Below, piece by piece: positions 15,771-64,000 of a DNA stretch of 64,000 bases (position 1 is its first letter; each line of letters opens with the position of its first letter). Under the pieces are notes generated by a model. The model had not been told where the DNA came from. It did no database searches and was given only the letters and a program-made list of their open reading frames with translations. Source of the stretch: Nothopassalora personata (lineage: Eukaryota; Ascomycota; Dothideomycetes; Mycosphaerellales; Mycosphaerellaceae). The stretch covers positions 2,232,001 to 2,296,000 of the forward strand of contig CM066298.1 in assembly GCA_033816765.1 (NCBI GenBank), written 5' to 3'. Position numbers and translations under genes: made by a program.

Positions 15771-15838
15771 AGATCCGATAATACTAAAAATAGGTCCGCC
15801 GATACGACTAATGACAATCGATCTCTCGGCCGACGAGC

Positions 15839-15911
15839 GACTAGGGTAGGAATCGAACCTACGACCTTAAGAGTATAGATAGCTTACGCTCTACTACTAA
15901 GCTACCTAGCC
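15839..15911 (-). tRNA. tRNA-like sequence in the 3' region of element A (degenerate)
   Basis: Read on the minus strand this 73-nt block forms a 7-bp acceptor stem (GGCTAGG with CCTAGTC, one G-T), a 4-bp D stem (GCTT with GAGC) and a perfect 5-bp T stem with a TTCGATT loop (GTAGG/CCTAC). A-box (TAGCTTAGTAGTAG) and B-box (GGTTCGATTCC) spacing fits RNA polymerase III promoters. The anticodon arm pairs poorly now; undoing plausible RIP changes would allow a 4-bp stem, but the anticodon cannot be read safely. It lies between pol and the antisense ORF; element E lacks the block. It is probably a captured, decayed tRNA or a tRNA-derived insert. Confidence 0.55.
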
Positions 15912-22149: not shown

Positions 22150-23817
22150 CTAGGAGGACAATTCCTCTTCAGATTCTTCGCTATCTAGCAAGTCTACTTG
22201 ACAGGTGCGTACGTTATGCCCCGACTCGCCACATCGCTTGCAGCGTCGTAGCCTTGGTGCTGGCCGAACACCATCTAGCGACTCTCTACTTACTTCCTGC
22301 CTCCTAGTATCCTCTGGAGGTATCAATTGCGACGCCTCATCGAAGGTTAGAGACCCTCTAGACTGAATATACTTGCGCTTTCGTGCTTTCCGCTGTGTAA
22401 GGGCCTCGTTAGACTTGCGTAGCTCACTGATCTCGCTTCGCATAAGAGCCATCTGATGCGCTATCTCTCTACTCCCTTTCACAAGCTGATGCACCCCTTC
22501 CTGTAACGAGTTTGGCGATGAACCTGCCCGGGCACGCATTTTGTTCGTTACTAGTGTCGATTGAGAGTCGAATTCTTTTGCAGTTCGTGGTGTCTTCGAC
22601 TCCCAAGGGGTAGAGTCCGGAGCTGGAGGCGTTGGCGTACGTAGCTTAACATCAAGCTTGTCTATCACTGCCTGTGGATTGAATGGAACCAAACCAGCGC
22701 CTCTGAAGCTCGATAGGATGTTCTCCTGTCTAAATACAGCGTCATGGGCAGCCCGGAAGGCGCGTAGGAACTCTACTTTGTCGATATGAGTGATGCGCTG
22801 GCGTGCCAAGCCCGAGAGCTGAGCACCGTATGCCTTCTTCAAAGGCGAATAGCAACCCACATCCAATGGCTGGAGTAAGTGCGAGGCGTGCGATGGCATA
22901 CATAGGGCCAAGATCTTGTATTCCTTGCACAGATTCTGGAATGCCTTCGAGTTGTGGCTCTCGTGGCCATCGATAATGAGCAGTCTCCATGCCCCAGTCG
23001 TACGAGCTACAGTATGCTTCTGGAAATGCTCCAGCCACCGTATACCGAACTCATTGTTGGTCCAGCCGTTCTCTGTTAGCCCGATTGTCCAGTCTGGACC
23101 CAAGTTGCCGTCTTGGTACCAGGTACTGATGTGCTGTTTGCCTGCAAGGATGACGTAGGGTGGGAGCGCTGTTCCGTCTGCACAGATGGTCTCAATCACT
23201 GTTGCCCATTCTCTGTTGCCCTGTTGGACGACCTTCCTCTTTCCACCACGCCTTTCTGAACCCGTAACGACGCTCTGCGACGTAATAACACCCATCATAA
23301 ACCCTGTCTCGTCAAAGTTGTAGGTGTCCTGGTCGAGGATGCCATACTTCTCCTTCATATTACGCACAAGCAAGAACCACTTCTCGATAACGTCTGGATC
23401 TTCCATTAGGGCTCGCTGACGATCGTATCCACGTGTCATGCGAACCTTTAGCTCACGATGCCGCCCAATGAACCTGTCTGTCCAATTGAGACCAGCGGGC
23501 TTGAGGCCCTTCTCTTGTAGCAATGAATCGGCCATTGCTCGTACGCTAGCCTTTGATGGCGGGAAACCTCTAAGATCCAGCTCGAGTATGTACTCAAGTA
23601 TCACCCTCTCTTCTAGCTCTGTAAGCTTCTTCGAATTGGGCTCGCAGTCACCCCGAGGAGGTCGTCCATTCAATCGATACCCTAGTGTGGTTCGAGACGC
23701 GTCGTATACCTTTGCAGCAAGTCGATTCGTGATTGTCGCGTCGCGTTTCGTGGCCTGGACAGCTAAGGTCAGTTTGGCCTCGTTTGAAGACAATACACGC
23801 TGTAATGGTGGTTGCAT
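22150..23817 (-). CDS. Fot1/pogo-family DDE transposase with CCHC zinc knuckle
   Basis: Cut-and-paste transposase acting on its own terminal repeats in the nucleus. I chose the Met at 23817 (555 aa), because the upstream in-frame Met (23895, 581 aa) lies inside the inverted repeat. In the 555-aa numbering: a psq/CENP-B type helix-turn-helix pair covers about residues 10-130 (ITNRLAAKVYDASRTTLGYR; GLNWTDRFIGRHREL). The DDE_1 catalytic core has Asp169 (NFDETGF), Asp283 (LLIIDGHESH) and Asp319 (LLQPLDVGCYSPLKKAY), the DDD triad typical of pogo. A coiled-coil-like stretch lies near 465-495, and a C-terminal knuckle CKRCGESGHNVRTC (CxxCx4Hx4C) precedes an acidic tail. Length fits Fot1-like proteins. 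No stop or frameshift; no intron is needed. Confidence 0.94.
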   Translation of the reverse strand: MQPPLQRVLSSNEAKLTLAVQATKRDATITNRLAAKVYDASRTTLGYRLNGRPPRGDCEPNSKKLTELEERVILEYILELDLRGFPPSKASVRAMADSLLQEKGLKPAGLNWTDRFIGRHRELKVRMTRGYDRQRALMEDPDVIEKWFLLVRNMKEKYGILDQDTYNFDETGFMMGVITSQSVVTGSERRGGKRKVVQQGNREWATVIETICADGTALPPYVILAGKQHISTWYQDGNLGPDWTIGLTENGWTNNEFGIRWLEHFQKHTVARTTGAWRLLIIDGHESHNSKAFQNLCKEYKILALCMPSHASHLLQPLDVGCYSPLKKAYGAQLSGLARQRITHIDKVEFLRAFRAAHDAVFRQENILSSFRGAGLVPFNPQAVIDKLDVKLRTPTPPAPDSTPWESKTPRTAKEFDSQSTLVTNKMRARAGSSPNSLQEGVHQLVKGSREIAHQMALMRSEISELRKSNEALTQRKARKRKYIQSRGSLTFDEASQLIPPEDTRRQEVSRESLDGVRPAPRLRRCKRCGESGHNVRTCQVDLLDSEESEEELSS

Positions 23818-23827
23818 AGCTGTATCT

Positions 23828-23897
23828 GTGGAAGTGGTACAGTTCTTGGCAAAAGTGGCCCGCTCGGTGGTGTGGCCCGCTCGGTGGTGAAGCACGT
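23828..23897. repeat. Right 70-bp terminal inverted repeat of the pogo element
   Basis: Reverse complement of 22032-22101, including the doubled 17-bp unit. It ends AAGCACGT just before the TA duplication. Confidence 0.93.
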
Positions 23898-26800
23898 TAG
23901 AAGATATCTACTACTAAATATGCTACTAAATTCTAGGAATACGCGCAACTTACCGATTAGGATAACGAAGTCCTTTAAGTTATATACCGAAGAGGACTAA
24001 AGGAGCATATTAAGGACGAGTTAATAAGGGACGGTCGGAAGATCGATAGCTTAGGCGACCTCGTTAGAGTTACGATTAATCTTAACGATAAGCTCTACGA
24101 GAGAGCTATAGAACGACGATACGACTCTAAGGTATCCGGAAAGGCTAGATATATACTAGGCTACGGTAACTGTAATAGAGGCTTCTACGACAACTATAAT
24201 AATAAGCCTAGAGATAAACCGTACTACGGACTATAGCTAATAGAGCTCGACGTTACCGAGAAAAGTCGTAAGATTAGGAATAGTAACGGGAATAGAGCAT
24301 CCCGGAGTTCGAAGGAAACATAAACTTACTATAGATATAGTAAACCTAGCTACCTAGTAAGGGACTACCGCGGTAAGAATATAGTACGCCGCGAATAGTT
24401 TAATATAATACAACTCCGAACTAGTAAATCTAAGAGTAGCGTTAGATCTTAAGGAGATACCGAGTATACTCGGAGAGTAGGGGAGAGAGCTAGTAATAGA
24501 AGCACGACGCCTCTCCTAGACCCCTTAGAAGGACGAGGAGGATACTATAGGTAGTAAATAGTAGTTATTCCATTTAATGCGAAGAACTAACTACGATAGT
24601 TTAATATAATAGTACGAAGAGTCGACTACGAGATCGAATCCGAGTCTTGAAATAGTTATAGAAGCCTTTATTAGCGATTCTGTTACTAAGACTCGTGGTA
24701 AGTTTACTACGCCGCGAAATTAGGCGTAGGGTATTAGCCTTAGTAACTAAGAGGAACCCTAGGAGCAACGTATAGGTAAAGCGCCACGCTCCGAGAAGTA
24801 GACATCGACGAATCCTACTTTAACGATAATAGAAGCGATAAAGGAAACTAAGACCTAGGATAGAACGGATGGTAGTTACCGGAACCATAGGAAGAAAGTT
24901 AAGAAACTACCGGGCTAGATACTATCGAGGAAGATTAGGATCCGGAAGAATTAAGCGAAGAAGATTCCTCCGAAGGAGAAGAGAGCGATACTAACGACAA
25001 TAATAGACAACTAACCTTTACGATTAATATACCTAAGAAATTATATAATATAATTGTATACCTATAAAGAAGGTACGAAGAATTCCTACCTAAGATAGGC
25101 GGACGAAGAATACTATACTCTATTAAGTTTAATAAGACACTCGACACCCTACGAGGTATAGCCTAGAGATACCTACTTATAGAAATAACCGAGAATCTAG
25201 TAACCGCTATTATAGAACGACTACCAATAGGGAGCCGAATAATAGGAACCGGATACCTTATACCGTTAGGAACATTTATATCGAATAAATTACGTAATGT
25301 AGTATAACACGTACGCGTACTCTACTTAGAAACGTAGAAGATCTAGGAACGTTACTAAATATAGGTACGGATATAGAAAGGCTTGCGCTAGATTTAAGCG
25401 GAGGCCTCGAGACACGAAGTACGACGTTCTATATACGAATAGGGAAAAGGATTAACTCCCTAGGAATAAGCGACCGAAGGGAGTTATACGACATAGAAAA
25501 GGCTTAAGTATTACTAATAACAATAGTGTTTCGAACTAAGATTGTCGTTAATAGGTATAAGATAGATACTATAATAGATTCTGGAGTAAGCGGGAACTTT
25601 ACCTCCGAATTATTTATTACAAGACATAGGATTGCTACCTATAAGAAGAAAGAGGGTTATAAATTAATCGCGGTAGACGGATTATCCTTACCTAGTATAG
25701 AGCGCGAGACGATACCGCTACTACTTACTATCTAACGGTACTACGAGGAAATTATCTTAGATATTACTAATATAGCTAGTTATAACATCGTACTAGGTAT
25801 ACCTTAGTTAAGAAAGCATAATCTAGTTATCGACTAGAGAAGAGGAGTACTTATATTTAGGGAATACGATTATATTATTAATATTTAGCCTACGTAGTAG
25901 TAGCGTTTACTAGTAGATAAGGTAAGGAAATAGCTAAGTAAGATATAGCTTACGCCGACTAGAAGGATAGAAGAACTACCTTCGACTGGGATAGACACTA
26001 GCGTAGGGCCGCCGGGTTACGAAGTTACTAGTAGTAATAGAAGTAACGTACTATCGAAGGATACTAATATCTTAGAGTTAAGTGTTCCTAAGGAGTATCG
26101 TAAGTAGTCGCGACTCTTTAAAGAGGAAAGAGGTAAGGATGCCTTACCTAAGCACTAACTATAGGATTATAAGATAAACATTTAGCTAGGGAAAGAGCCT
26201 CTATAGAGACCCCTATATTAAATGTCTAAGAAAGAGCTATAGACCGTACGAGAATAGCTAAAGGAGAAGCTAGCTAAAGGATAGATAAGAAGATCTACCT
26301 TAAGTATAGGAACTCTATATATGTTCGTTCTAAAAGCAAACGGGAAGTTACGACTTATATAAGACTATAGGAAGTTAAACGAGATTACGATTAAGAACCG
26401 ATACCCGCTACCTAACATCGAAGAAGCGTAAGATAGATTAACCGGATTAGACTAGTATACGAAGATTAACCTACGAGATACCTTCTACGCTATACGGATA
26501 GCGGAAGGAGAAGAATAGAAAACCGCTTTTAGAATAAGATACGGACTTTACGAATTCTTAGTTATACTAATAGGATTAACTAACGTACCCGCATCCTATT
26601 AGGACCTTATTAACGAGACACTTGGAGACCTACTCGATATATACGTTATCGCTTATATAGACGATATATTAGTCTATACGAAAGAATCCCTTTAGAATTA
26701 CATAAAACAAGTCTAGGACGTATTCGAACGACTTACGCGTTTAGGATTTAAGACAGTACCCGAGAAATGCGAATTCTATAAGAAAGAAGTTAAATTCTTA

Positions 26801-27705: not shown

Positions 27706-29950
27706 CTCCCACTTATCTTATATAGGAGGTTATAGTCTACTCTTCTCCTGTTAGTAGTATTTGGATCTCTATAATAGGTTAAGCTAGCTCACAAACCTCT
27801 AGAAGTGTAGACTAGTCTTTAGCTTTATAAACCTATCTATAACTATCTTAGATGTTGGGGTGTACTTAATAGTAATAAGCCTTCTCTACTAAAGTTTCCT
27901 AATAGCATTGTAGGCAATGTCAATATACTTTGACTTATTATAAACATGTGCATCCCTTACTAGGGTAAGGGTAGCTTAGTTGTCACCTCTTAATTAGACT
28001 AGTCTTAAGCTTAACATAGTCTCCTAGTTTCTAGTAATCCTTAGTTGATAGGAACAGTCTCCTACTAACTCTAGACAGTCTATCTCCCTTAGTAGTAAAG
28101 CTAGGAATTAGGATTGCTTTACACATGCATTTATAGCTATGTATTTAGCTTCTATTATAGATGTTACTACAGACTTTTGCTTCTTACTTATCTAGGAGAC
28201 TAGTGCCCTATAGAGGAAGAAGACATACCTAAGGATAGAGACTCTGTCTACTTTGTCTATTGCATAATTAGAGTCATAGTATCTAACTAGGCATCCTTCT
28301 CTATGCCTAGAGAAGATAAGGCTAAGATTAGGATATAACCTTAGATATCTTATAATCTTCTTTAAAGCCTTTATATAGTAGGCGGATAGGTCACTTATAA
28401 ATGAGCTTATCCTTCCTAGGGCAAAAGCAATGTCTAGCCTTGTAATTGTTACTCGCTACATCTATATACTATTAATACTCTAGTACTCTGCCTTGTCACA
28501 CCTCTTATCTATGTAGCTTAAAGGTTTAAGAGCCTTATAGCTGTCTATAGGTAAGTGTATAAGTGCTGCCTTCTTATAGTTTATCCCCATCTTAGTAAGG
28601 TTGTCCCTAATAAAGTGTCCCTAGTTAAGTTTTAGGATTCCTCTCCTCCTGTCCCTTGTGACTCTTATACTAAGGATCTTTTTAGGTTCACTAAGATCTT
28701 TAATCTTAAAGACTTTGCTAAGTTCTCTTTTAAACTAGAGAACATCCGTTAACTTTAGTACAGCAATTGGAATGTTATCTACATGTATAAGAATTATAAT
28801 CTCTTTTTCCTTATAAATGAGTAGGCATGGATCCACCTCTAACTATGTGAATCTAATCTCTCTAAGCTTTAACACATAGAGTTAATTCTAATCTCTAGCT
28901 GCTTGCTTAAGTCTATATAAGCTTTTAAGGATCTTAAACACTATGTTTAGTAGAAGCTCAACTCCTAGTAGTAGTAATATAAAGATGTCTTTATAGAGGG
29001 TACTTTCTATAAACGTATTGTTTACATCTACTTAGTAAAGATAGAGATCCTTCTTATACACAATAGCTATAAATACCCTAAGGGTGTCCTATCTAACTGT
29101 AGGCGCAAATGTCTCTATAAAGTTAATACTAAACTTCTATAAAAAGCCCCTTACAACTAGCCTAGCCTTAAACTTTTTAATAGCTCCACTAATGCTTCTT
29201 TTAACATTAAAGACCTATCTTAACGTAACTAAGTTTGCTCCTTTTAGTGGAATAGCATTCTCCTAGGTGTTGTTGCTCTATAGAGCATCTAGCTCCTTCT
29301 AGATTGCTTCCTTCTAAAGGTGTCCCTATTTCTTATTATTTATAGCATCCTTATAGAACTTTAGAATTAGGATCTCTTGCTTGTATACAATAACTTCTAC
29401 AGTTGCTACAAAGGCTATCTCCTCAACTTCTTCTAGGAATTCACTATCCTATAGTACTAAATTATCTACTAATTGCATAGCTATAAAGAAAGCTTAGTGG
29501 TAAGTAGCAAGGTTCTCTAAGAGGTCTATTACTTCTCCTACTTTAGTAGCTAGTTTAGGTATAGGGACTATAGATCTTAGGGCTTTCTGTTTCCATTTAT
29601 AGCCCTTAACATTATAGTTAGCCCTCCTCTTACTAAGGGATAATCCAAGAGTAGTCACTTATGTCCTAGTAACATCCTTTTCCTAGGAATCTAGTGAGCT
29701 TATCTTAATTAGCTTATTAATTTTCTAAAATTCCCCTACATTCTTTAGAGGCTAGGGAAGTTGCACAAACAGCTTTCTTAGTTAGGCTATTACTAGGCTC
29801 TGAATGATTAAATGGTAAACAGGTTGCTCTAAGGATATGTCCTTCCTTAGCCTTCCTAAGGGTCTCCTAGCTGGTGCATTGCTTAATAGATTCAATTTTG
29901 TAACATTGAGATCTATATTACCTCTAGGTTAGTCCTTAAAGAAGTCTATA
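27706..29950 (-). pseudogene. RT and RNase H of copia G (RIP-broken)
   Basis: Minus-strand reading. At about 28795-28760, ILIHVDNIPIA is the copia YVDDI catalytic box, with Tyr-to-His and Asp-to-Asn changes. The RT start, including the WVFKIKR-like region, lies near 29280-29080, and the RNase H end lies near 27900-27780. The same region is seen in H from 63760. It would copy the RNA to DNA. The 60-residue plus-strand ORF at 29084 is a shadow. Confidence 0.75.
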
Positions 29951-31790
29951 TATGTGTGTTATTTAATAGCTTTTATGTCTAGTTCCTAAAAGAGCTAGGC
30001 CTTAGCTATGTTTTCAACGTATCTAATAAACACTGCTTCTTTGCCTCTATTCATTAGTTTATCACTTCTTGCCTATTAAGGCTAGGATCTTGTGTCTATG
30101 TAGACAATAGCTTTACATCCCTAAACCTTTAAATAGTTAATAGTTAGCTTAATACTATTAAAGGCTTTATCTAGTAAAACCTTGAACCTATTATAGTCTA
30201 GACCATTTAGTAGTTTGTTCCTTATATAGGTTTGGGCTTCTAGTACTTTAGGCTAGAATTTAATTAGTATCTTAGCCTCTTTAAGCATTGCCCTTATAGA
30301 GTCTTCTAAGGTTTGTATTAACCTTTTAACTAGTCCATTTTAGAGCGAGTTATATGCCTTAGTATACTCTAGCCCAATTCCTAAATCCTTCTCCTACTGC
30401 TTAACTAATGCAATAAGTTCCCTTACATTGTTAAGCCTAACTACTTTCAACTATGCTAATGATTTCCTCTCTGCCTTAATCTTCTAGTTCTAGAGAGCAA
30501 CTAGAGCATCTTCTCTTTTCTTAAGAGGATAGGTCTACTTCTTTCTAGAGAAGTTGTTAACAATCTTAAGCTAGTATTTAAACCCTAGCCTTAATATTAG
30601 CAGTGGACTACATATGTTAATAGATATAAGGGCAAGTCTTTTAGGTCTTCTCTTAGTAACTTTGCCTTTATACTTCTTTATCTTTGCTATTAAACACACT
30701 CTGCACTAGTAGAAGCTATCCCTAGGAATAGGAATAGGTTCTTTCAAGTCTATTACCTTATCAAGATTCTAGAGCAAGTTCTTCCTAAAGTGTACAAATC
30801 TTCTATGCTAAAGCTCCTACTGTTTTAGGTCAGTCTCTAATTTAGTAGTTACAAAGGCATTCTCTATTAGTAGTGTACATAATAAGTAATGTGCCTTTTC
30901 TTGCAGTAGAGGAGAAATCTCATTAATGAATAGAACCCCCCTAATAAGCCTTGTCTAGATAACAGTTTAGCTAGAGGGGGATACAAGAGAAAATGAAGGA
31001 GGTTAGACACTAAACTGCTTGCTAAACTGGTTCTAAGAAACTAGGTTTACTCCTAGCTTAGGTATAAGTAGAACATCTTCTAAAACAACTTTCCTGCTAA
31101 GAGCAACTAGAGCATCTTCTCTTTTCTTAAGAGGACAGGTCCACTTCTTTCTAGAGAAGTTGTTAACAATCTTAAGCCAGTATTTGAACCCTAGCCTTAA
31201 TATTAGCAGTGGACTACATATGTTAATAGATACAAGGGTAAGTCTTTTAGGTCTTCTCTTAGTAACTTTGCCTTTATACTTCTTTATCTTTGCTATTAAA
31301 CACACTCTGCACTAGTAGAAGCTATCCCTAGGAATAGGAATAGGTTCTTTCAAGTCTATTACCTTATCAAGATTCTAGAGCAAGTTCTTCCTAAAGTGTA
31401 CAAATCTTCTATGCTAAAGCTCCTACTGTTTTAGGTTAGTCTCTAATTCAGTAGTTACAAAGGCATTCTCTATTAGTAGTGCATATAATAAGTAATGTGC
31501 CTTTTCTTACAGTAGAGGAGAAATCTTATTAATGAATAGAACCCCCCTAATAAGCCTTGTCTAGACAACAGTTTAGCTAGAGGGGGATATAAGAGAAAAT
31601 GAAGGAGGTTAGACACTAAACTACTTGCTAAACTGGTTCTAAGAAACTAGGTTTACTCCTAGCTTAGGTATAAGTAGAACATCTTCTAAAACAACTTTCC
31701 TACTAGATCTCCCACTTATCTCTACAGTCCTAATATAAGTGGCTAACAAATGCCCACCTCCTACTTTGATCTATTTCTTCTTTGTTAAGG
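29951..31790 (-). pseudogene. Protease end, pre-integrase and integrase of copia G with internal duplication
   Basis: On the minus strand 31740-31640 reads VVLEDVLLIPKLGVNLVS, the segment between the copia protease and the GAG-pre-integrase domain. CLIAKIKKYKGKVTKRR and KIVNNFSRKKW mark the pre-integrase to integrase-core border. A 606-bp tandem copy (30494-31099, 31100-31705) repeats this segment in frame, so a 90-residue open stretch (31033-31305) fuses the integrase start back to the protease end. The rest of the integrase runs to about 29950. RIP stops occur elsewhere. Confidence 0.75.
30494..31705. repeat. 606-bp tandem duplication within copia G
   Basis: 30494-31099 and 31100-31705 are collinear; the differences I see are C/T and G/A transitions, with the second copy less RIPped. 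606 is a multiple of three. Element H has only one copy of this region, so it is private to G. Confidence 0.88.
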
Positions 31791-32990: not shown

Positions 32991-33266
32991 AGGTGTATAT
33001 GCTTTAAAGTGGCTTAGGTCCTACTAAGGCTTTTAGTGTAGAATAGTAGGTGTAGATACTAAGGCCTGCTTAGTAGGGTAAAGAAAGAGCGGTATAGTCT
33101 CGGAGCTAGGACATAGGTCTGTCTCTCCTAGCAGAGTTCTAAATGACTTACTTAAAGTCCTTCTTAATAGTATCTCGATGCAGTTCTGCCTATAGAGTGT
33201 CTTTAAGGTATTAGCTTATAGTAAGCCGTATAGAGTCCTTTTCTAGATTACCTATCACTTAGTATT

Positions 33267-33344
33267 GTCGTCCTATAGAGAGCGCCTTCACGCGGCGGAC
33301 GACGTAAGTATCTTCGTTACGACGAAGAGAAACTAAGACTCTCT
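33267..33344 (+). ncRNA. HDV-like self-cleaving ribozyme at the 5' end of retroposon copy 1
   Basis: The layout matches the HDV/CPEB3 double pseudoknot. P1 GTCGTCC (33267-33273) pairs with GGACGAC (33297-33303). P2 AGAGAG (33277-33282) pairs with CTCTCT (33339-33344). P3 GCC/GGC (33284-33286, 33294-33296) closes loop L3 TTCACGC. P4 is a 7-bp hairpin TCTTCGT/ACGAAGA with a TACG loop (33311-33328). J4/2 GAAACTAAGA offers C33333 followed by TAAG, as for the catalytic C-N-A-A. P1 starts on the first base of the element, where such a ribozyme would cleave. All base pairs are Watson-Crick. Confidence 0.82.
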
Positions 33345-33522
33345 CTCTCGAAAAATACAAGCCTACTCGACTCGAAACAAGAAAAGACAGGTCGGACGAA
33401 CCGAACGAACGAGATACGCTCAAAATCTACAAACAAGAACTCCGGAACTGCGAGAAGGGAAAGCGACGTACATAGCGTACACGTCGCTCGAACAACGAAG
33501 GCGCTGTCTACCTGTCGTCCCG

Positions 33523-33609
33523 GCAAACCACGTAAACTGCCGGCTGGAACCAAGAGAGGCGTTTAGGGGCGCAAACCACGTATACTGCACGGCTGGAACC
33601 AAGAGAGGC
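33523..33609 (+). repeat. 48-bp internal tandem repeat in retroposon copy 1
   Basis: Unit starting GCAAACCACGTA at 33523 recurs at 33571; the second copy covers 39 bp with two small differences. Copy 2 of the retroposon has the same pair at 52632-52718. Confidence 0.85.
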
Positions 33610-34162
33610 CGAGGGGGGGACGACAGCGAGGCCACTGCGACCGAGGAGCTACACTCGAGACCGGAGAACGCGACTGGATTGAAACAGAGGCAACGGGTGT
33701 TTCTTGGGATTTTGCTCGGTGCGTACGGGTACGGCCGGCTTGGCTTTTTAAAACAAGAACGAGACACGGGCGCAAAACTTGTCTCGCCCGGGGCAAGGCG
33801 ACAAACCGCAATTCTCGACAAGACACGACTACCGGGTACGCGCGTACTACGCCGCAATATATTCGATTTACGGTTCGAATAGCGAGCGTTGCTCGCATCT
33901 TTTAAGGAGTTTTTACGTCCGGGGTACGACGGGGCTTTTCTCCTTCTCTCAAATTTTGGTCTCGTTCTCGAGACCCGTGTTGCATAGTCTTTGACTCAAA
34001 TAGCACGTTAATGGAATAATCAATCAAATATCACTTAGTATTAAACTAAGCTCCTTAATAGGACAGATAGGGTAGACTTCTGCTTCCTAGATGTTTTCTG
34101 CTATAATAGCAAGGGATACAAGTAACCTATACTAATATAGGTTGCTCTTACTCCTACACAAA

Positions 34163-34177
34163 CCCGGGCTCATAACC
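34163..34177 (-). promoter_or_regulatory. Primer-binding site of copia G: initiator tRNA-Met anticodon arm
   Basis: The plus strand reads CCCGGGCTCATAACC directly next to the 5' LTR. GGGCTCATAACCC is the anticodon stem-loop of initiator tRNA-Met, with CAT as anticodon. Copia-type elements are known to prime from a cleaved half of this tRNA rather than from its 3' end. Element H shows the same site (59812-59826) with one RIP change. Confidence 0.85.
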
Positions 34178-34424
34178 TGTTAAGTTAAGACCTAACAGGA
34201 TACGTAGTTAGCAGCGGAGTAGAGTAAGAGATCAATCTTCAACTAGCTAATAGCCACAGGGCATGTAGCAATATATTAGGAACCAATGTGTGAATTGTGT
34301 TAGATGTCTATCTAAGCTAAAGGGGAGAGAAGGTGTCTTCCGACAAGCTAAGTCATCGTAGATGCCTTAGGCTATTAGATCACAACCTAACTGTTAGCTC
34401 CCCCTAAGATGCTACATCTTAACA
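34178..34424 (-). repeat. 5' LTR of copia element G
   Basis: 247 bp, nearly identical to 27459-27705; differences are C/T and A/G. It is homologous to H's LTR at 59565-59811. Confidence 0.93.
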
Positions 34425-36189
34425 ATAGTAATATAAGTTAAAAGTATCGAAACTATAAGAGATTCTTAGCGTTCCTAAATATAAAGGAGATTTATAGATC
34501 TAGATAATTAGTCTAATTATTCTAAGTATAAGTAGTCTAATTAGTCTAAGCATAAGTAGTCTAATCGCCCTAAGTCTAAGCGCTTAGGTAGAATAAGTTA
34601 CGTACTCGTCTTATTATTATAACTCTAGGGTCTATAGGAATCATTCCGTAACACTTACGTACTTTACGACGACGAAAGAACTTACCCGAAGGCAAGCCTA
34701 CTAGTTGGAGCTACTAGGGGAGTATAAGTTTAAAATTAAATATACTCTAGGACGAAAGAATAGCCGTACCGATACGCTAAGCTAAAGAAGCGACTATATA
34801 GAAGGAAAAGAACTAGTGCAATATAAGATACTAAGGACAAACTCCGACGGAAGTCTTAGTACTAACATGAGAGAATTTAATAATATCGTACGAATATTAG
34901 GCGATAAGAATAAACAATTCCCTATATCGTAAGGAAAATACTAAGTACCGAAGGATCGAGAAGAAGAATGCATACGATAACATTACGACGAGCTAACTTA
35001 TAGACATCCTAGAATATTAAAGACGGTAGATCTTATATAACGTAGCTTCTTATTTCTATAGATAAGACTTAAAGTGCTACGCTACATTAAGCGATACGTA
35101 CACTATTAATAGAACAAAGCTGCTCGATACGCTAAGTACGGTTACCTACAGTTTAGGACACTACCCGAGAAACTATAGGACGAAGTTACGATAGACTTTA
35201 TTACAAAACTCCTACTCTCGAAGGACCTAGTTATAGAATAGACGTACGACATAATACTAGTTATAGTTAATAGACTTATAAAATACGTACACTTTATTCC
35301 TACGTTAGAAATATACAATATAGAGTAGCTCGGATAGCTCGTACTAGATAGACTTATCCGATACTACGGATTCCCTTAAGCGTTTATAACGGATAGAGAT
35401 AAGCTATTTTTATTAAACTACTAGAAGACACTTATAGAAACGATCGGAATTAAACATAAGCTATTAATAGTATATTATCCGGAGATAGACGGATAAACTA
35501 AAAGGATAAACTAAACGCTAGAACAATATCTACGATACTATATTAACTACGTATAAGACAACTAGGTTTTACTACTGCTAATAGCGTAGATCGCACTAAA
35601 TAACTATAAATTAGAGACAACTTTAACGATACTATTTTATACGAACTTTAGGAAAGATCCTAACCTATTCGGAACACCTAGATCCTACCTATAAGCCGAA
35701 AGAGCGATCGTAAAGACGGACACTCTTAAGGTAGTGTATAAAGGAACACGTAAGGCGATCGAAGATATATAATATAAACTGTCTTAATAACGGCAAGACA
35801 CGAGAAAAATAGCACCTCTACTAAAAGAGGGGGATAAGGTCTATCTCCTTATAAAAAACTTAAGAATAAGAAGATAGACTAAGAAACTAGATTACATTAA
35901 GGTCGGACTATTTTCTATCGATAAAGTTATAGGACTAGTTAACTACCGCCTACGACTACTACCCGACGCTAAAGTTCACCTAGTCTTCTATATCTCTAAG
36001 TTAGAACCCGCGGACGCTAAAACACCTTACTAAGAAAGCTTCTATTTTAAGCTAGAAGTAGAAAACGAATTCAAAGTCAAAAAAATCGTAGATAAAAAGG
36101 GTTAGGAATACCTTATTAAGTAGAAAGGATACGACAAATTAGAAAATACCTATAAACTAAAACAACACCTACGAAACTATTAGTAAAAG

Positions 36190-51636: not shown

Positions 51637-52375
51637 CTTATAGTAGTCCTCCTTTTTTAGTATAGCTACCGTATATATTTAGACTAGATTCGAGAAGGTA
51701 TTACGTAAGTATCTAATCTTAGCGTTATTAGACTAGTCTTCCCCCCGGTACTTAGTAGGACCCCGTCGAATTTTATCTAGTAATCGTGCTAAGATTAGCT
51801 ATTTACGTATCTAATCTTAGTAAGTTACTCGAAGGCCTTAGCGCGCTCGTTACTATCCCTAAAAACTTTCTCTAGCTACGCAAAGAAGATAACGGGGTCC
51901 TTCCTATATTTACCGTCCCCTTTCTCCTATAAATATTATATCCTAGTACGCTAACTAGCTATTAGAGTATCGTTAACTACATCCTAATAGAACTCGTTAG
52001 AGAGCGTCGGTTTTAGGGCGGATCGTACCCTAAAAGCGCTCTTTATCCTTAGGAAGTAGTTGTAAAAAGTCTCTACTCTACTATCCTATATCGGCGGGTT
52101 CTAACTCCTAGGTCCCGACGGTTCTCTACCGGCCCTCGGCGTAACTATAGCGGTATTTAATATCTATAGTAGCTACCTAATTAGGTCTTCTATAGGCGTA
52201 TTATCTTAGGTAGACGGTAATACCGTAGGTATCGATTATTATTGAGCGTTTTCTAACTCTTTTAGGGTAACTTACGTCGTAATTAATTTAGCCTATATTT
52301 CTTTTTATCGCTAGTATAGTTATTAGAGTATAAGCTAAAAGCTCTTATTTAAGGTACCTACTCCGGAATTCTCGC

Positions 52376-52453
52376 GTCGTCCTATAGAGAGCGCCTTCAC
52401 GCGGCGGACGACGTAAGTATCTTCGTTACGACGAAGAGAAACTAAGACTCTCT
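52376..52453 (+). ncRNA. HDV-like self-cleaving ribozyme at the 5' end of retroposon copy 2
   Basis: Same sequence and fold as 33267-33344: P1 52376-52382 with 52406-52412, L3 TTCACGC at 52396-52402, P4 hairpin 52420-52437, candidate catalytic C at 52442, P2 closing strand 52448-52453. The first base follows the target duplication directly. Confidence 0.82.
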
Positions 52454-53140
52454 CTCTCGAAAAATACAAGCCTACTCGACTCGAAACAAGAAAAGACAGG
52501 TCGGACGAACCGAACGAACGAGATACGCTCAAAATCTACAAACAAGAACTCCGGAACTGCGAGAAGGGAAAGCGACGTACATAGCGTACACGTCGCTCGA
52601 ACAACGAAGGCGCTGTCTACCTGTCGTCCCGGCAAACCACGTAAACTGCCGGCTGGAACCAAGAGAGGCGTTTAGGGGCGCAAACCACGTATACTGCACG
52701 GCTGGAACCAAGAGAGGCCGAGGGGGGGACGACAGCGAGGCCACTGCGACCGAGGAGCTACACTCGAGACCGGAGAACGCGACTGGATTGAAACAGAGGC
52801 AACGGGTGTTTCTTGGGATTTTGCTCGGTGCGTACGGGTACGGCCGGCTTGGCTTTTTAAAACAAGAACGAGACACGGGCGCAAAACTTGTCTCGCCCGG
52901 GGCAAGGCGACAAACCGCAATTCTCGACAAGACACGACTACCGGGTACGCGCGTACTACGCCGCAATATATTCGATTTACGGTTCGAATAGCGAGCGTTG
53001 CTCGCATCTTTTAAGGAGTTTTTACGTCCGGGGTACGACGGGGCTTTTCTCCTTCTCTCAAATTTTGGTCTCGTTCTCGAGACCCGTGTTGCATAGTCTT
53101 TGACTCAAATAGCACGTTAATGGAATAATCAATCAATCAA
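52376..53140 (+). mobile_element. Short non-autonomous non-LTR retroposon, copy 2
   Basis: 765 bp, with every base I compared equal to copy 1 except for one additional AATC tail unit. It is flanked by a different 14-bp target duplication, tccggaattctcgc (52362-52375, 53141-53154), inside J's gag remnant. It is not RIPped, although a duplicate of this size lies 19 kb away. The same opposite-strand ORFs occur here and are treated as chance. Confidence 0.87.
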
Positions 53141-53228
53141 TCCGGAATTCTCGCTACCCGGCGACGCTATTACTTATACCGTCTCTTTAATAGTATATAC
53201 CTAGTTAATTTAAATAGATCGAACTTAA

Positions 53229-56605: not shown

Positions 56606-59564
56606 ATGCCTTTAGTAGCGAATACGTCGTCTAGAAAAGCCGATAGGAGAGGTAAGCGGGCGAAGGCGAAACGTCTAAAGCCGTATACGCTAGATACGAC
56701 GACATCCTTAGCCTCTCGTCTCGATGCCATTCGACATCGTTATCCCCGAGAGCGTCTAAAGGAGGCTATAGATGAAGCTCGAGACGTGCGCTATGTAAAC
56801 ATCTAGTAGCGTGTTATCTATTAGTATCTATATAACTTATATAGATTCGAGCTATACTACTAGTAGGTCCGCGTACTACGGCGTCTAATTTTTAGTAGCG
56901 GAGATACCCTATTAATTGCACGGACCGGGTTTAGTAAGAGTATAATATTTTATGCGTATAGTGTTCTTATAGATCGCATTACTATTTAAATCGTGCCGTT
57001 AGTTAAGCTTAGAGATAAGCAGTTACGTAACATTCGTTAGCTTAGTAGTAGTACGCGTCCTGTCTTAATAGTAGAGGGTACTAAGTCGGAGGACCGAATG
57101 ATATTATAGAAGATAGCCGATAGCTAATATACTTATATACTGCTTAGACCTAAGTAAGCCTCGTCCGCATCTTTTCGGAAGTTACTAAAGGACTCGAGAT
57201 TTGCCTCGCGTATTAGACTCGTCGCAATCGATGAATGCTATACTATTCGGTAGTAGAAGGATTTTAGACCGGCCTTCGCGATACTAGGCTAGCTACGAGA
57301 CTAGCTACCGCGAGAGGTGTGTTAGTTTACCTATTCTACTACACTCGATAAGGCTACGGAAGAGGATGTTCTCTAGAACGCTAGATTTCGGTGTCTTAGT
57401 CTATTACCATTCTAGACCGAGGTGATTCGAACGTCCATTAATCGTATAGATATAGCTATCTACTTACGATAGATTCTAAAGGGTGAACTTAACTAGTAGC
57501 ATTAACTTAGGTTCTTGTTAGAGCATACTGTAATAGACGGTAAAGCGACACCTAATCGAATCCGTAAGGCTATCGTTTTTATCGATAGTATTAGTACTAT
57601 CGCTACTACTACGACCTTTATTACCGAAGCCTTAATCCGACTAACCGCGGATACGCTACCGTAAGATTAATATTATCGTAAGCGCGTAGGTGTCGGTTAC
57701 TATGTAGCCGATGTCGTGTAGACCTTTACGTTAGTTACTGCCGAATAGGATAAGAACTTCCGATATAACGAGTTTAAAAAGGAGAACTCTCGGATTAGGG
57801 TTATCGTTACTACTACTTCATTAGGCATAGGCGTTAACATTCTAGATGTCGAGATCGTTATGTGTTAGAAGTTCCCTATTGGTATAGATGTCGGCGACAT
57901 TTAGTAGAGACTCGGCCGTAGTGGTCGTAGCGAGGGCCGGACGAGCATTAGTATAATATATCTACCGTATTAGGCTTTTAACTACAATAGTATCGATCTA
58001 GCGGATATAATAGATACTAATAACCCTAAGGCTAAGACGGCTACATAAAAGAAGGCTCGTAAGACCGTATAGAAAAATCAATTACCTTCGCATCGTAAGA
58101 AAGCTCGTATAGGTATAGCCGCTATAATCTAACCGGACTAGGGTGATTTAAGCAAAGGGTCCGAGGCTAGTTCCGAGGCTAGTACCGAGTCTAAAGTAGA
58201 GCTATTTAATCCGGACAATAAGCTAAAGTGGATAGTAGATAAGAGGCATAATCGTAGGCTATTGCCTCTAGTTTAGCGAGACATTATTAATAGCAGTTAC
58301 TATCGTAGTAGGTTCCTCCACTTTCTCGGAGAAGGACGCCTACTACCGGGCGAGGAAAGGCGTGTCGTGTCACTACTAAGCCTATACTATAATACGTACA
58401 CGCCGGATACATTCCTATTATCGACATTCTAATTGCTACCTATACTAGTTGTTCCTATAGCTCCACGGAAAGGTTCTCGTTCTACTATCGCATTAGTAGC
58501 ACTCGATGAATAGGCTTATAGGCACGCTACCGAGCTACGTCCTAATACTATGTTCCCTATACCGCCTAATGCATTTATATCTAATAGGCTCCGGTAGGAC
58601 ATCGTTACGCTATATAACGATAAGTTGTATAAGTCTCTAAATATCTCGAGTAGTTAGGATAATCTAGTAATCGATAGGTTGTACGAGAAGGTGCCTCGTA
58701 TTATCGAGTAGAAGTACTAGGGTGTACATTAATTAACATTACTAGCCTAACTTAAGCAGCAGTTCTCTATCGTCTAGTCTATACTTATAGAGCGTGTAAC
58801 GGTGCGGAAAGCTAGTTGTAATGCTAGAAAGGCTACACCTACTAATAATAGGGAGTTAAACTAGGACGATAAGGACGCTACCTAGTCGTTAAGGCGTGCG
58901 GAGGAGGCTAGGGACAACAATCTAATCCTAGTTACGGCTCCCAATATGTTAAAGCTACGGTAAGAGCGAGAAGGTAATAATCGGCAAGTCTACGATCTAG
59001 TTGGGGGTAATAGTCGGTAGGTCTATAGTCTAGCGAGAGGTGTATACATACCGTTCGTGTTAACTAGTCCTATAGCGTTACCTTCCACTATTATAACTAG
59101 TGCTATATCGATACCGTGTCTAATAAATCGATCGCCTACCCGTCCGTAGTACTTACCGATTACGCCTAAGTCGAGTATGCTACCGCCGGTACAAGTTTCG
59201 ATACTACTAGCATTATAGACATTACTTATAAGTACGACTAACTATGCCCTCTCTACTAAGAAGACTAGTCGAGAAGTGGATGCATTTCTTACTAATCGTA
59301 GGTCTCCTATTACTACGCCGAAGGTTACTACATTTAGTACTAGCGGTGTACCGGATCCTTTTATACTAGACGAGACCAAGCTCTAGGCATTGTAAGCACC
59401 TACCGATATAGTGCCCGAGGTAGATAGATTAATATCTCCTACTATTATAGTATTGGATTCGTAGGTCTTAGTACTAGACTCTTAGGTTACAGTTCTAGAC
59501 TCTTAGGTTACAGTTCTAGACTCCTAGGTTATAGTGCCGGAGTCGTAGAGTATACTACTAGAAT
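56606..59564 (+). pseudogene. RecQ-like DEAH/DECH helicase (RIP-broken), cut by copia H
   Basis: ATP-dependent DNA helicase relic. It starts MPLVANTSSRKADRRGKRAK. Motif I ARTGFSKS (56917-56940; GKS with Gly to Ser), motif II IDECYTIR (57227-57250; DECH with His to Tyr), a V-type motif TTTSLGIGVNILDVEIVMC (57810-57866) and motif VI RLGRSGRSEG (57907-57936; GRxGR) follow in superfamily-2 order. The linker QIVPLVKL-type text also fits RecQ. The C-terminal part (58140-59560) has no known domain and ends in a 7-residue repeat. Stops are RIP-type (TAG/TAA). Family members in fungi are often repeated near telomeres (telomere-linked helicases). The end is lost in the H insertion. Confidence 0.82.
59455..59555 (+). 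repeat. 21-bp minisatellite coding for a VLDSQVT-like repeat
   Basis: Four to five units of about 21 bp (TTCTAGACTCTTAGGTTACAG pattern) sit in frame at the C-terminal part of the helicase relic. Each unit gives V-L-D-S-stop-V-T, the stop being a probable Gln codon. Confidence 0.85.
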
Positions 59565-59811
59565 TGTTAAGATGTAGCATCTTAGGGGGAGCTAACAGTT
59601 AGGTTGTGATCTAATAGCCTAAGGCATCTACGATAACTTAGCTTATTAGAAGACACCTTCTCTCCCCTTTAGCTTAGATAGACATCTAACATAATTAACA
59701 CATTAGTTCCTAATATATTGCTGCATGCCCTATAGCTATTAGCTAGTTGAAGATTAATCTCTTACTCTACTCCGCTACTAACTACGTATCCTATAAGGTC
59801 TTAACTTAACA
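59565..59811 (+). repeat. 5' LTR of copia element H
   Basis: 247 bp, TGTTAAGATGTAGC to CTTAACTTAACA, the reverse complement of G's LTRs with RIP-type differences. It is followed by the primer-binding site GGTTATAAGCCCGGG at 59812-59826. Confidence 0.93.
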
Positions 59812-60259
59812 GGTTATAAGCCCGGGTTTATGTAGGAGTAAGAGTAACCTATATTAGTATAGGTTACTTATATCCCTTGCTATTATAGCAGAAAACATCT
59901 AGGAAGTAGAAGTCTACCCTATCTATCCTATTAAGGAGCTTAGTTTAATACTAAGTAATAGGTAATCTAGAAAAGGACTCTATGCGGCTTACTATAAGCT
60001 AATACCTTAAAGACACTCTATAGGCAGAACTGCATCGAGATACTATTAAGAAGGACTTTAAGTAAGTTATTTGGAACTCTACTAGGAGAGACAGACCTAT
60101 ATCCTAGCTCCGAGACTACACCGCTCTTTCTTTACCCTACTAAGCAGGCCTTAGTATCTACACCTACGAACCTTACTATTCTACACTAAAAGCCTTAGTA
60201 GGACCTAAGCTACGACTTTGAAGCATATACACCTTGTTTTATTACATTCAATTTATTAT

Positions 60260-61399: not shown

Positions 61400-64000
61400 T
61401 TATCCTATATAACTAACTAGAACTGCCTCTTTAGATCTATAACTCCCTTAACAAAGAAGAAATGGATTAAAGTAGGAGGTGGTTATTTGTTAGCTACTTA
61501 TATTAGGACTATAGAGATAAGTAGGAGATCTAGTAGGAAAGTTGTTTTAGAAGATGTTCTACTTATACCTAAGCTAGGGGTGAACCTAGTTTCTTAGAAC
61601 TAGTTTAGCAAGCAGTTTAGTGTCTAACCTCCTTCATTTTCTCTTATATCCCCCTCTAGCTAAACTATTATCTAGACAAGGCTTCTTAGGGGGGTTCTAT
61701 TTATTAATAAGATTTCTCCTCTACTATAAGAAAGGGCACATTACTTATTATATGCACTACTAATAGAGAATGCCTTTGTAACTACTAAATTAGAGACTAA
61801 CCTAAAACAGTAGGAGCTTTAGTATAGAAGATTTGCACACTTTAGGAAGAACTTGCTCTAGAATCTTTATAAGGTAATAGACTTAAAAGAACCTATTCCT
61901 ATTCCTAGGGATAGCTTCTACTAGTGTAGAGTGTGTTCAATAGCAAAGATAAAGAAGTATAAAGGCAAAGTTACTAAGAGAAGACCTAAAAGACTTACCC
62001 TTATATCTATTAACATATATAGTCTACTGCTAACATTAAGGCTAGGGTTCAAATACTAGCTTAAGATTGTTAACAACTTCTCTAGAAAAAAGTGGATCTA
62101 TCCTCTTAAGAAAAGAGAAGATGCTCTAGTTACTCTCTAGAACTAGAAGATTAAGGTAGAGAGGAAATCATTAGCATAGTTAAAAGCAGTTAGGCTTAAC
62201 AATGTAAGGGAACTTATTGCATTAGTTAAGCAGTAGGAGAAGGATTTAGGAATTAGGCTAGAGTATACTAAGGCATACAACTCGCTCTAAAATAGACTAG
62301 TTAAAAGGTTAATACAAACCTTAGAAGACTCTATAAGGGCAATGCTTAAAGAGGCTAAGATGCCAATTGAATTCTAGCCTAAAGTACTAGAAGCCTAAAC
62401 CTACATAAGGAACAAACTACTAAATAGTCTAGACTATAATAGGTTTAAGGTTTCACTAGATAAAGCCTTTAATGGTATTAAGCTAACTATTAACTATTTA
62501 AAGGTTTAGGGATGCAAAGCTATTGTCTACATAGACATAAGATCCTAGCCTCAATAGGCAAGAAGTAATAAACTAATAAACAGAGGTAAAGAAGCAGTAT
62601 TTGTTAGATACGTTAAAAACATAGCTAAGGCCTAGCTCTTTTAGGAACTAGACATAAAAGCTATAAAACAACATATACATGCAGACTTCTTTAAGGACTA
62701 ACCTAAAGGTAATATGGATCTTAATGTTACAAAATTGAATCTATCAAGCAATGCACTAGCTAGGAGACTGTTATTGTCTCGTTCCAGGGCTAGTCTCAAA
62801 AGAGAGATAAGTCAAGTCACGTGGCGGTATTATTCTTTGGAGAGGCTGAAGCAAGCTGAGCGAAGATGAATGATAGGAATAAGAGTTGTATTCCAATCAG
62901 TGAGATAGTAACATGAGTTGAACGCATCAGAACCATAAGGGTTTCTAGCGTTCCTAAATACAAAGGAGGTTCGTATGCCATCCGGTGTTAGATGTCCGTC
63001 TGTCCACTCGACCGGTCGTCTGGTCGTGTGGTCGTGTACGTCCATACGCTACTTCTGCGGTCGTGTTCGACCATGCACTAAGCGCGCGGTCGTGCACGTG
63101 ACCCGGACGTGGGGTCCCTTTCTCTTCCTAGCGATTGGTTCGTGTCTTCTGATTCTTCCTCCCCATGCCACGTCCTGCACCGTCCTTCATCCGAACCGTA
63201 ACAGAGACCCTTAGGGAGGCTAAGGAAGGACATATCCTTAGAGCAACCTGTTCACCATTCAATTATTCAGTAGAGTAGCCCAGTAACAGCCTAGCTAAGA
63301 AAGCTGTTTATGCAACTTCCTTAGCCTCTAAAGAATATAGGGGAATTTTAGAAAATCGATGAGCTAATTAAGATAAGCTTACTAGATCTCTAGGAAAAGA
63401 ATGTTACTAGGACACAAGTGACTACTCTTAGATTATCCCTTAGTAAGAGGAGGGCTAACTATAATGTTAAGGGCTATAAATGGAAACAGAAAGCCCTAAG
63501 ATCCATAGTCCCTATACCTAAACTAGCTACTAAAGTGGGAGAAGCAATAGACCTCTTAGAGAACCTTACTACTTACTACTAAGCTTTCTTTATAGCTATG
63601 CAATTAGTAGATAATTCAGTACTATAGGATAGTGAATTCCTAGAAGAAGTTAAGGAGATAGCCTTTATAGTAACCATAGAAGTCATTGTATACAAGTAAG
63701 AGATCCCAATTCTAAAGTCCTATAAGGATGCTATAAATAATAAGAAATAGGGACACCTTTAGAAGGAAGCAATCTAGAAGGAGCTAGATGCTCTATAGAG
63801 CAACAACACCTAGGAGAATGCTGTTCTACTAAAAGGAGCAAACTTAGTTACGTTAAGATAGGTCTTTAATATTAAAAGAAGCATTAGTAGAGCCATTAAA
63901 AAGTTCAAGGCTAGGCTAGTTGTAAGAGGCTTTTTATAGAAGTTTAGTGTTGACTTTATAGAGACATTTGCGCCTACAGTTAGATAGGACACCCTTAGGG
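61400..64000 (+). pseudogene. Pol of copia H: protease, integrase, RT start (RIP-broken), interrupted by a solo LTR
   Basis: VVLEDVLLIPKLGVNLVS at about 61543-61595 marks the protease to pre-integrase border. The C(R)VCSIAKIKKYKGKVTKRR stretch (61930) and KIVNNFSRKKW (62066) start the integrase core. EFWPKVLEA-like and YLKV-GCKAIVYID text (62370-62540) ends it. RT begins after the solo LTR, with a readable VFNIKRSISRAIKKFKARLV at 63868-63927. The opposite-strand 60-residue ORF at 63810-63992 is a shadow. Confidence 0.8.
62769..63203 (-). repeat. Fresh, almost unmutated solo LTR of the A/F superfamily
   Basis: 435 bp, TGTTATTGTCTCG to CCGTAACA, flanked by gagac (62764-62768, 63204-63208). Read on the minus strand its 3' ~220 bp match the A/F LTR, while the first ~210 bp are different and GC-rich, with a short GGTCGTNT repeat near 63013-63045. 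CA and TG are frequent, so it has escaped RIP. No internal sequence is present, so a full element must have existed in or near this genome recently. Confidence 0.85.

Follow-up and report, generated by a model that had tools for sequence, protein, structure and literature searches.

Self-cleaving ribozymes of the HDV type have been described both from fungi and from retroposons, in separate lines of work. In 26 fungal species 230 HDV-variant ribozymes have been reported, and constructs of two of them cleave (PMC5640933). In the main text of that paper only 'widely variable gene associations' are mentioned, while the terms 'retrotransposon' and 'transpos' occur 0 times (PMC5640933). Among retroposons, the Drosophila R2 and R2/R1 SIDEs are non-autonomous elements of the rDNA with a 5′ HDV-like ribozyme (PMC3414825), and for R2 cutting from the co-transcript has been shown (PMC3774820). 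Direct repeats of 10-20 bp surround the Mg-SINE/MGL chimaeras of Magnaporthe (PMC2104539).

Here, a window of 64,000 nt from contig CM066298.1 of Nothopassalora personata was analysed, which contains two copies of a short element named SINE1. Each of the described systems resembles SINE1 in part. Its predicted ribozyme agrees with the fungal HDV variants in the double pseudoknot, in a loop E at P4 and in an additional nucleotide, for the most part C, that separates P2 from P3 (PMC5640933). Like the Drosophila SIDEs, SINE1 is non-autonomous, has a putative 5′ HDV-like ribozyme, ends like a LINE and shows signs of target-primed reverse transcription (TPRT); however, the SIDE ribozyme derives from R2 and resides in the rDNA, whereas SINE1 is dispersed, no ribozyme was found at the head of its candidate LINE, and heads of this kind occur with different tails (PMC3414825). 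The trypanosomatid NARTc/SIDER elements with Pr77 are likewise non-autonomous and have an HDV-like head, theirs being active, but they have this head in common with their LINE (L1Tc/ingi), whereas none was found for the LINE of SINE1 (PMC4035085). The Mg-SINE is fungal as well and its 3′ end mimics a LINE (MGL), but in the part of the source considered no ribozyme head is described for it (PMC2104539). The 5′-end cutting of R2 goes with variable 5′ junctions, while those of SINE1 are mostly clean (PMC3774820). The ribozyme of CPEB3 belongs to a single mammalian intron, unlike that of SINE1. Its L3 is nearly equal to that of SINE1, and it is not known to have a loop E or an extra C. In its P1.1 a single Watson-Crick pair is combined with a U/U, like the C-G plus U/U of SINE1 (PMC7026644). 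Taken as a whole, the analysis makes it highly likely that SINE1, which encodes no protein, belongs to the non-autonomous non-LTR retroposons and combines a ribozyme at its head with a tail that mimics a LINE; its RNA would cut itself and then be copied by a LINE. Two other families of the genome have the same kind of predicted head.

Copies, boundaries and insertion marks of SINE1

The positions of both SINE1 copies and of the putative ribozyme are given in Table 1. The boundary of copy A is considered correct because an empty relative of its target, located in the same window, has the 14-bp target once only; here, 33046-33266 corresponds to 59947-60167 (97%) and 34029-34433 to 59556-59960 (94%). 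The genome (54.5 Mb, 40 contigs) was searched for further copies, resulting in 449 SINE1 candidates, 40 of which were scored, all at 100%. The RPB2 encoded in this genome is 97% identical to that of Fulvia fulva, a genus of the Mycosphaerellaceae, and 95% to that of Dothistroma septosporum, which places the fungal host close to Fulvia. The first 37 nt were found at 290 genomic sites with at most 3 mismatches, those listed having 0, and the last 26 nt at 351 sites with the same limit.

Table 1. Features of SINE1 and its predicted 5′ ribozyme in the window (numbers in brackets are counted from G1 = 33267)
Feature	Position	Strand	Remark
SINE1 copy A, 748-bp core	33267-34014	+	290 genomic 5′ ends; identical to copy B
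SINE1 copy B	52376-53123	+	100% to copy A over 748 bp
AATC-type 3′ tail, copy A	34015-34028	+	length differs from copy to copy
14-bp target site duplication, copy A left	33253-33266	.	adjoins G1; single at empty site 59947-59960
14-bp target site duplication, copy A right	34029-34042	.	from sequence
14-bp target site duplication, copy B left	52362-52375	.	from sequence
14-bp target site duplication, copy B right	53141-53154	.	from sequence
42 nt common to SINE1 and LINE 3′ ends	33973-34014	+	95% to L083 7154-7195
Predicted HDV-like ribozyme	33267-33344	+	putative cleavage between 33266 and 33267; from structure, covariation and covariance models
P1	33267-33273/33297-33303 (1-7/31-37)	+	7 Watson-Crick pairs
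J1/2	(8-10)	+
P2 pseudoknot	33277-33282/33339-33344 (11-16/73-78)	+	6 pairs
Extra C17 between P2 and P3	33283	+	from sequence; mark of fungal HDV variants (PMC5640933)
P3	33284-33286/33294-33296 (18-20/28-30)	+	3 pairs
L3 UUCACGC	33287-33293 (21-27)	+	closed by P3
G38	33304	+	P1.1 partner of L3 C23 (33289); U22/U39 adjoining; start of J1.1/4
AGUA facing GAA	33307-33310 (41-44)/33329-33331 (63-65)	+	loop-E-like, flanks P4
P4	33311-33317/33322-33328 (45-51/56-62)	+	7 pairs, loop UACG
J4/2 C, then UAA	33333 (67)	+	predicted catalytic C

For 61 full-length copies with unlike flanks, taken as the best matches and the first listed sites and not as a random draw, the insertion junctions were determined. 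A target duplication of 10-15 bp directly at G1 was present in 49 of them, five had a duplication of 13-14 bp together with 1-4 extra bases, and for seven none was found. Furthermore, 14 of 100 listed SINE1 3′ ends had no listed 5′ end; the assumption that these were LINE ends was rejected, since all 14 turned out to be 5′-truncated SINE1 copies. Their truncation points are scattered between 2 and 688, and eight of them have a clear duplication of 12-15 bp. Truncation at scattered 5′ points, together with target duplications and a tail of repeated units, marks TPRT and characterizes a non-autonomous non-LTR retroposon, as do the absence of an encoded protein (the sole ATG frame of at least 40 aa comprises 111 aa and runs antisense) and the 3′ end in common with an autonomous LINE, all of which were found for SINE1. 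An earlier note on this DNA had proposed that a short fungal retroposon begins exactly with a ribozyme, and both the duplications adjoining G1 and the empty site agree with this position.

SINEs are usually sorted by their pol III-type head (tRNA, 5S, 7SL). In SINE1 no A or B box was detected by a coarse consensus scan, no tRNA by ARAGORN and no tRNA, 5S or 7SL by Rfam, and it is therefore referred to as SINE-like. Its length, tail, LINE mimicry and copy number would also suit a pol III SINE of the classical type whose head is unusual and not tRNA-like; besides the missing boxes and heads, however, runs of at least 4 T inside the element, which would stop pol III, make this origin very unlikely.

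Some further repeats and genes were noted in the window. SINE1 itself contains an imperfect direct repeat (33523-33560 and 33571-33609, 38 and 39 nt, 94.9% alike). A total of 46 inverted-repeat pairs, the 25 longest with 78-97% identity (e.g. 29857-31099 with 61531-62773), represent nested repeats in both orientations, and an open frame of 585 aa at 22150-23907 on the minus strand, with DDE_1 and HTH_Tnp_Tc5 domains, is that of a DNA transposase.

Structure and covariation of the predicted ribozyme

All helices of the HDV/CPEB3 fold that had been assigned to the first 78 bases were recovered at the positions listed in Table 1, as were C33333 and the following UAA. The AGUA/GAA arrangement around P4 is presumably a loop E motif. 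Pairing of C17 with G71 is also possible, A72 being left as a bulge. By single-sequence folding, P1, P3 and P4 are already contained in the minimum-energy fold, which adds 3 pairs between 41-43 and 66-68; these would have to be opened for the HDV fold. The fold energy is ordinary (z -0.74; 48 of 200 shuffles as stable or more), and folding energy on its own is uninformative.

For comparison, 18 ribozymes were aligned, comprising SINE1, ten SINE2 copies (L106-L115), the more distant L116 (68%) and L117 (75%), L105 and four copies of SINE3; 16 rows are distinct. The start of P1 was chosen per family to fit P1, so that P1 pairing is partly fitted, while fixed rules were applied to P2, P3 and P4 save for a hand-placed insertion in L110; in the parse of L117 a probable extra base was left out. 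The structural characters of the HDV class are present in SINE1, beginning with the nested double pseudoknot of P1-P4 with L3 and the J4/2 core. P1.1, for which one or two pairs are expected in this class, was scored as the third base of L3 against the base that directly follows P1′, and is C-G in 7, U-A in 6 and U-G in 5 of the 18 copies. The trans GU of L3, a signature described in PMC3386971 with U and G five apart, was found in the window copy and in 16/18 copies; in the case of L105 and L106, its letters had been demanded by the search pattern. J4/2 reads CUAA in the window and C.AA in 18/18 copies, a sequence which the parser had demanded. AGUA occurs in 15/18 and GAAA in 14/18 copies (L105 and L106 had been searched for with a pattern that included AGTA), and the C between P2 and P3 in 18/18, this C being demanded by search pattern and parser alike. 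As a separate observation, P1.1 is U-A instead of C-G, with both sides changed, in six SINE2 copies (L107, L108, L110, L111, L113 and L114), which could be compensation or a twofold C-to-T decay.

With respect to the fungal HDV variants, C33283 represents the extra nucleotide between P2 and P3 and loop E is present, but the C-G pair at the cleavage site is missing. The first P1 pair is G-C in SINE1 and mostly G-U in the aligned rows (G-C 2, G-U 10, A-U 2, other 2 among the 16 distinct rows), in contrast to the typical, though not invariable, C-G of the variants described in PMC5640933. The fungal HDV variant is therefore regarded as the closest relative of the SINE1 ribozyme and not as a class to which it belongs.

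Pairing across the families was evaluated for the whole of P1, P2 and P3 and, in P4, for the five outer pairs. In the 16 distinct rows 314/336 cells are paired (shuffle mean 274.8) and 12/21 pairs show a two-sided change (shuffle mean 6.36), and neither value was reached by any of 2000 shuffles; the extra pair types are no higher than in shuffles, 459/2000 reaching the observed value. With six lineage representatives, 122/126 cells are paired and 13/21 pairs are two-sided, both reached in 0/2000 shuffles, and for the pair types the corresponding number is 668/2000. Two-sided changes include pairs 2, 5 and 6 of P1, pairs 3, 4 and 5 of P2 (A-U to G-C, G-C to C-G and A-U to U-A) and pair 1 of P3 (G-C to A-U). 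The P2 pseudoknot is invisible to any nested model. The shuffle test ignores relatedness, which is retained in a second control where the partner was slid by 1-3 positions (P1-P3, 18 rows); here, pairing decreased from 0.95 to 0.38-0.54, and two-sided changes amounted to 0-4 compared to 7/16.

Two covariance models were built without SINE1, and their E-values are rough. Model R1 is based on 15 sequences, with SINE1, L116 and L117 left out, and on a hand-set nested structure. In the window it matched both SINE1 copies with 87.6 bits (E 1.9e-17), followed by a match of 9.4 bits (E 2.2), and among the 68 loci L001-L068, 58 of which were scanned, it gave a single ribozyme per locus and no other match at E 1. 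Model R2, made from SINE3 and L105 only, recovered both window copies at E 4.8e-9, with no further match up to E 10. That the fold is an HDV-like ribozyme, as the earlier note had proposed, is supported by covariation across families and by models to which SINE1 had not contributed. Small size and a self-cleaving motif are also found in retrozymes (PMC4918200, PMC7229834), and SINE1 might be suspected to move through circular RNA in a similar way. However, retrozymes have ribozymes at both ends, while model R1 found the ribozyme once in each window copy and not at the 3′ end, and the copies show the marks of TPRT, which renders such a mode of movement highly improbable.

The chance expectation was estimated with 9.6 Mb of simulated sequence. 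A descriptor of the element's stem strengths and four core letters had 0 matches there, the stems without core letters had 2, loose stems with the four letters 1 and loose stems alone 368. In 587,444 bases of the window and the fetched loci (both strands), the strict descriptor gave 60 matches, all at the start of SINE1, and the loose descriptor 207. Of these 207, 60 fall on the SINE1 start, 125 on a single site of the opposite strand and 22 elsewhere. The opposite-strand site, present in most copies, lies well inside the element and not at its 33266-33285 edge; the strict stems are missing from it, and it was taken as a chance match.

The search with Rfam HDV models that the earlier note had suggested as a check remained below threshold. 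In the window no HDV family exceeded its gathering score, the best being RF02682 with 19.9 bits versus 44, and the ribozyme is therefore filed under no Rfam family; scans of six related loci gave no HDV family over threshold either (in L106, RF00622 with 19.4 bits versus 35). The sole Rfam match over threshold in the window is a tRNA gene at 15838-15911 on the minus strand (54.6 bits), in a stretch of 36% GC. The Rfam result, the ordinary fold energy and the extra pair types within the range of shuffles stand against the ribozyme. The first two of these would also be expected if hairpins in the GC-rich start of a repeat resembled the HDV fold by chance. Against the simulated sequences, the covariation and the occurrence of the fold at the insertion junction in three families, such a coincidence is hardly credible. 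The start of P1 coincides with the insertion junction in 49/61 SINE1 copies and in the SINE3 copies L119 and L120. Judged by fold and covariation, it is very probable that the RNA of SINE1 is released at its first letter through self-cutting by an HDV-like ribozyme.

Candidate helper LINE and further ribozyme-headed families

A search with the profile PF14529 identified 18 places in the genome, eleven of which have nearly equal scores and look like one young LINE. Its copy L083 contains ORF1 (412 aa) and ORF2 (1076 aa) with endonuclease (EN) and reverse transcriptase (RT) domains. The closest listed relatives of the LINE proteins are unnamed (best 82%), and the named ones listed are mostly fungal, one being labelled plant. 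The last 42 nt of the LINE are 95% identical to those of SINE1 and are followed by a tail of the same AATC kind, and this EN+RT LINE is the probable helper of SINE1. A pattern of the LINE 3′ end was found at 16 genomic places, one of them a SINE2 copy. L084 and L092 were considered as LINE chimaeras, but their 3′ ends lie ~10.3 kb and ~3.9 kb past the EN matches as compared to 3.5 kb in L083, and insertion into the LINE is likelier than a chimaera. In both (L084 from 6700, L092 from ~21) the LINE is interrupted in or near its 3′ UTR by a second repeat starting with GTCAGGGCGA.

At the 5′ end of the LINE no ribozyme was detected by the descriptor or by model R1, in a search that covered forms other than those with a long J1/2. 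The LINE starts alike in 5/7 places read (L083-L089), L087 and L088 being without the shared start, and a precise 5′ end alone therefore needs no ribozyme. This bears on the possibility that the fold is real by descent, while the 5′ end of SINE1 is now set by a transcription start at G1 through an edge promoter, as in some LINEs. The uniform starts of the LINE in the same genome are in line with it, as is the trypanosome Pr77 head, which is promoter and ribozyme at once (PMC8190864, PMC4035085). Compensatory changes across families and a near-invariant core, however, argue for a structure kept by selection, and a start at G1 in place of self-cutting is considered unlikely.

Further ribozymes were searched for in the genome with a core pattern of the fungal variant that excluded SINE1 (L3 UUCACGY, the preceding C and AGUA, with stem letters free). 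Two matches were obtained, L106 and L105. The reversed control also gave 2, and the case for both loci consequently rests on their pairing and not on the number of matches: P1, P2, P3 and the C.AA junction are present in both, with letters differing from those of SINE1. Another genome pattern search for ribozymes gave 0 matches and 1 in the reversed control. Viral contigs searched with the core yielded one match (L104), which was dismissed as model R1 matched it only partially (8.8 bits, E 2.2).

L106 belongs to SINE2, a family with nine near-complete old copies including this query (the others 79-86% identical to L106) and four partial ones. At its 3′ end, L106 has 87.5% identity with SINE1 in a stretch of 40 nt and 75% with the LINE in one of ~200 nt. 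An imperfect flanking duplication of 14 bp (12/14) was read by eye, while an exact-match script search found none. Among the unpaired stem cells of SINE2 many are of the C-to-T type, as repeat-induced mutation would leave. L100, considered to be an old LINE, was identified as a truncated SINE2 copy. A 5S rRNA gene (L106 225-344, minus strand, 81.7 bits) is located ~200 bp upstream of the L106 insertion.

SINE3 was found through matches to the first 50-57 nt of L105 and has four copies. L119 (521 bp) has a perfect 17-bp duplication directly at G1, L120 one of 17-19 bp at G1 and L121 one with a mismatch, read by eye; for L118 none was found in the fetched stretch. The 3′ end of SINE3 differs from that of SINE1 and the LINE, and SINE3 therefore probably uses a helper other than the LINE of SINE1. 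L105 itself (543-631) is a stray copy of a SINE3-like ribozyme with some stem letters of its own, and neither a duplication nor a known element behind the ribozyme was found there. SINE2 and SINE3 are two further families beside SINE1 in the same genome with the same kind of predicted ribozyme head on other bodies.

Proposed mode of propagation and its significance

Based on these sequence comparisons, the following mode of propagation is proposed. SINE1 would be transcribed from an upstream or read-through promoter, and the HDV-like ribozyme of its first 78 nt is predicted from fold and covariation to cut before G1 by means of the J4/2 C, so that the RNA would begin exactly at the element. 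The common 42-nt 3′ end and the AATC tail would be bound by the LINE machinery and the RNA copied by TPRT, as suggested by the tail, the duplications and the 5′-truncated copies. In this way an entire element would be restored, headed once more by the ribozyme from base 1 on.

HDV heads on non-autonomous retroposons, fungal HDV variants and LINE-mimicking fungal SINEs are known separately, and the union of these three, in several families with different tails, is new as far as searched. No ribozyme-headed fungal SINE-like elements were found among the open-licence papers listed, which is weak evidence of absence. The claim of a new carrier class made in the earlier note accordingly holds for a fungal SINE-like carrier, for which no printed report was found, but not for ribozyme-headed non-autonomous retroposons (PMC4035085, PMC3414825) or fungal HDV variants (PMC5640933) as such. 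It is an evenly balanced question whether ribozyme-headed SINE-like retroposons form a widespread fungal class with HDV-variant heads on varied bodies and LINE tails, in which case the 230 fungal HDV variants would mostly be such heads and not parts of host genes.

A self-cleaving head would spare the element a start-site promoter of its own, since any read-through transcript could provide a full-length template. The presence of three families in one genome, one of them with ~290 near-identical 5′ ends, suggests that this strategy works well. Moreover, the HDV-variant ribozymes of fungi would thereby be given a role that can be tested, and natural compensatory variants become available for structure work.
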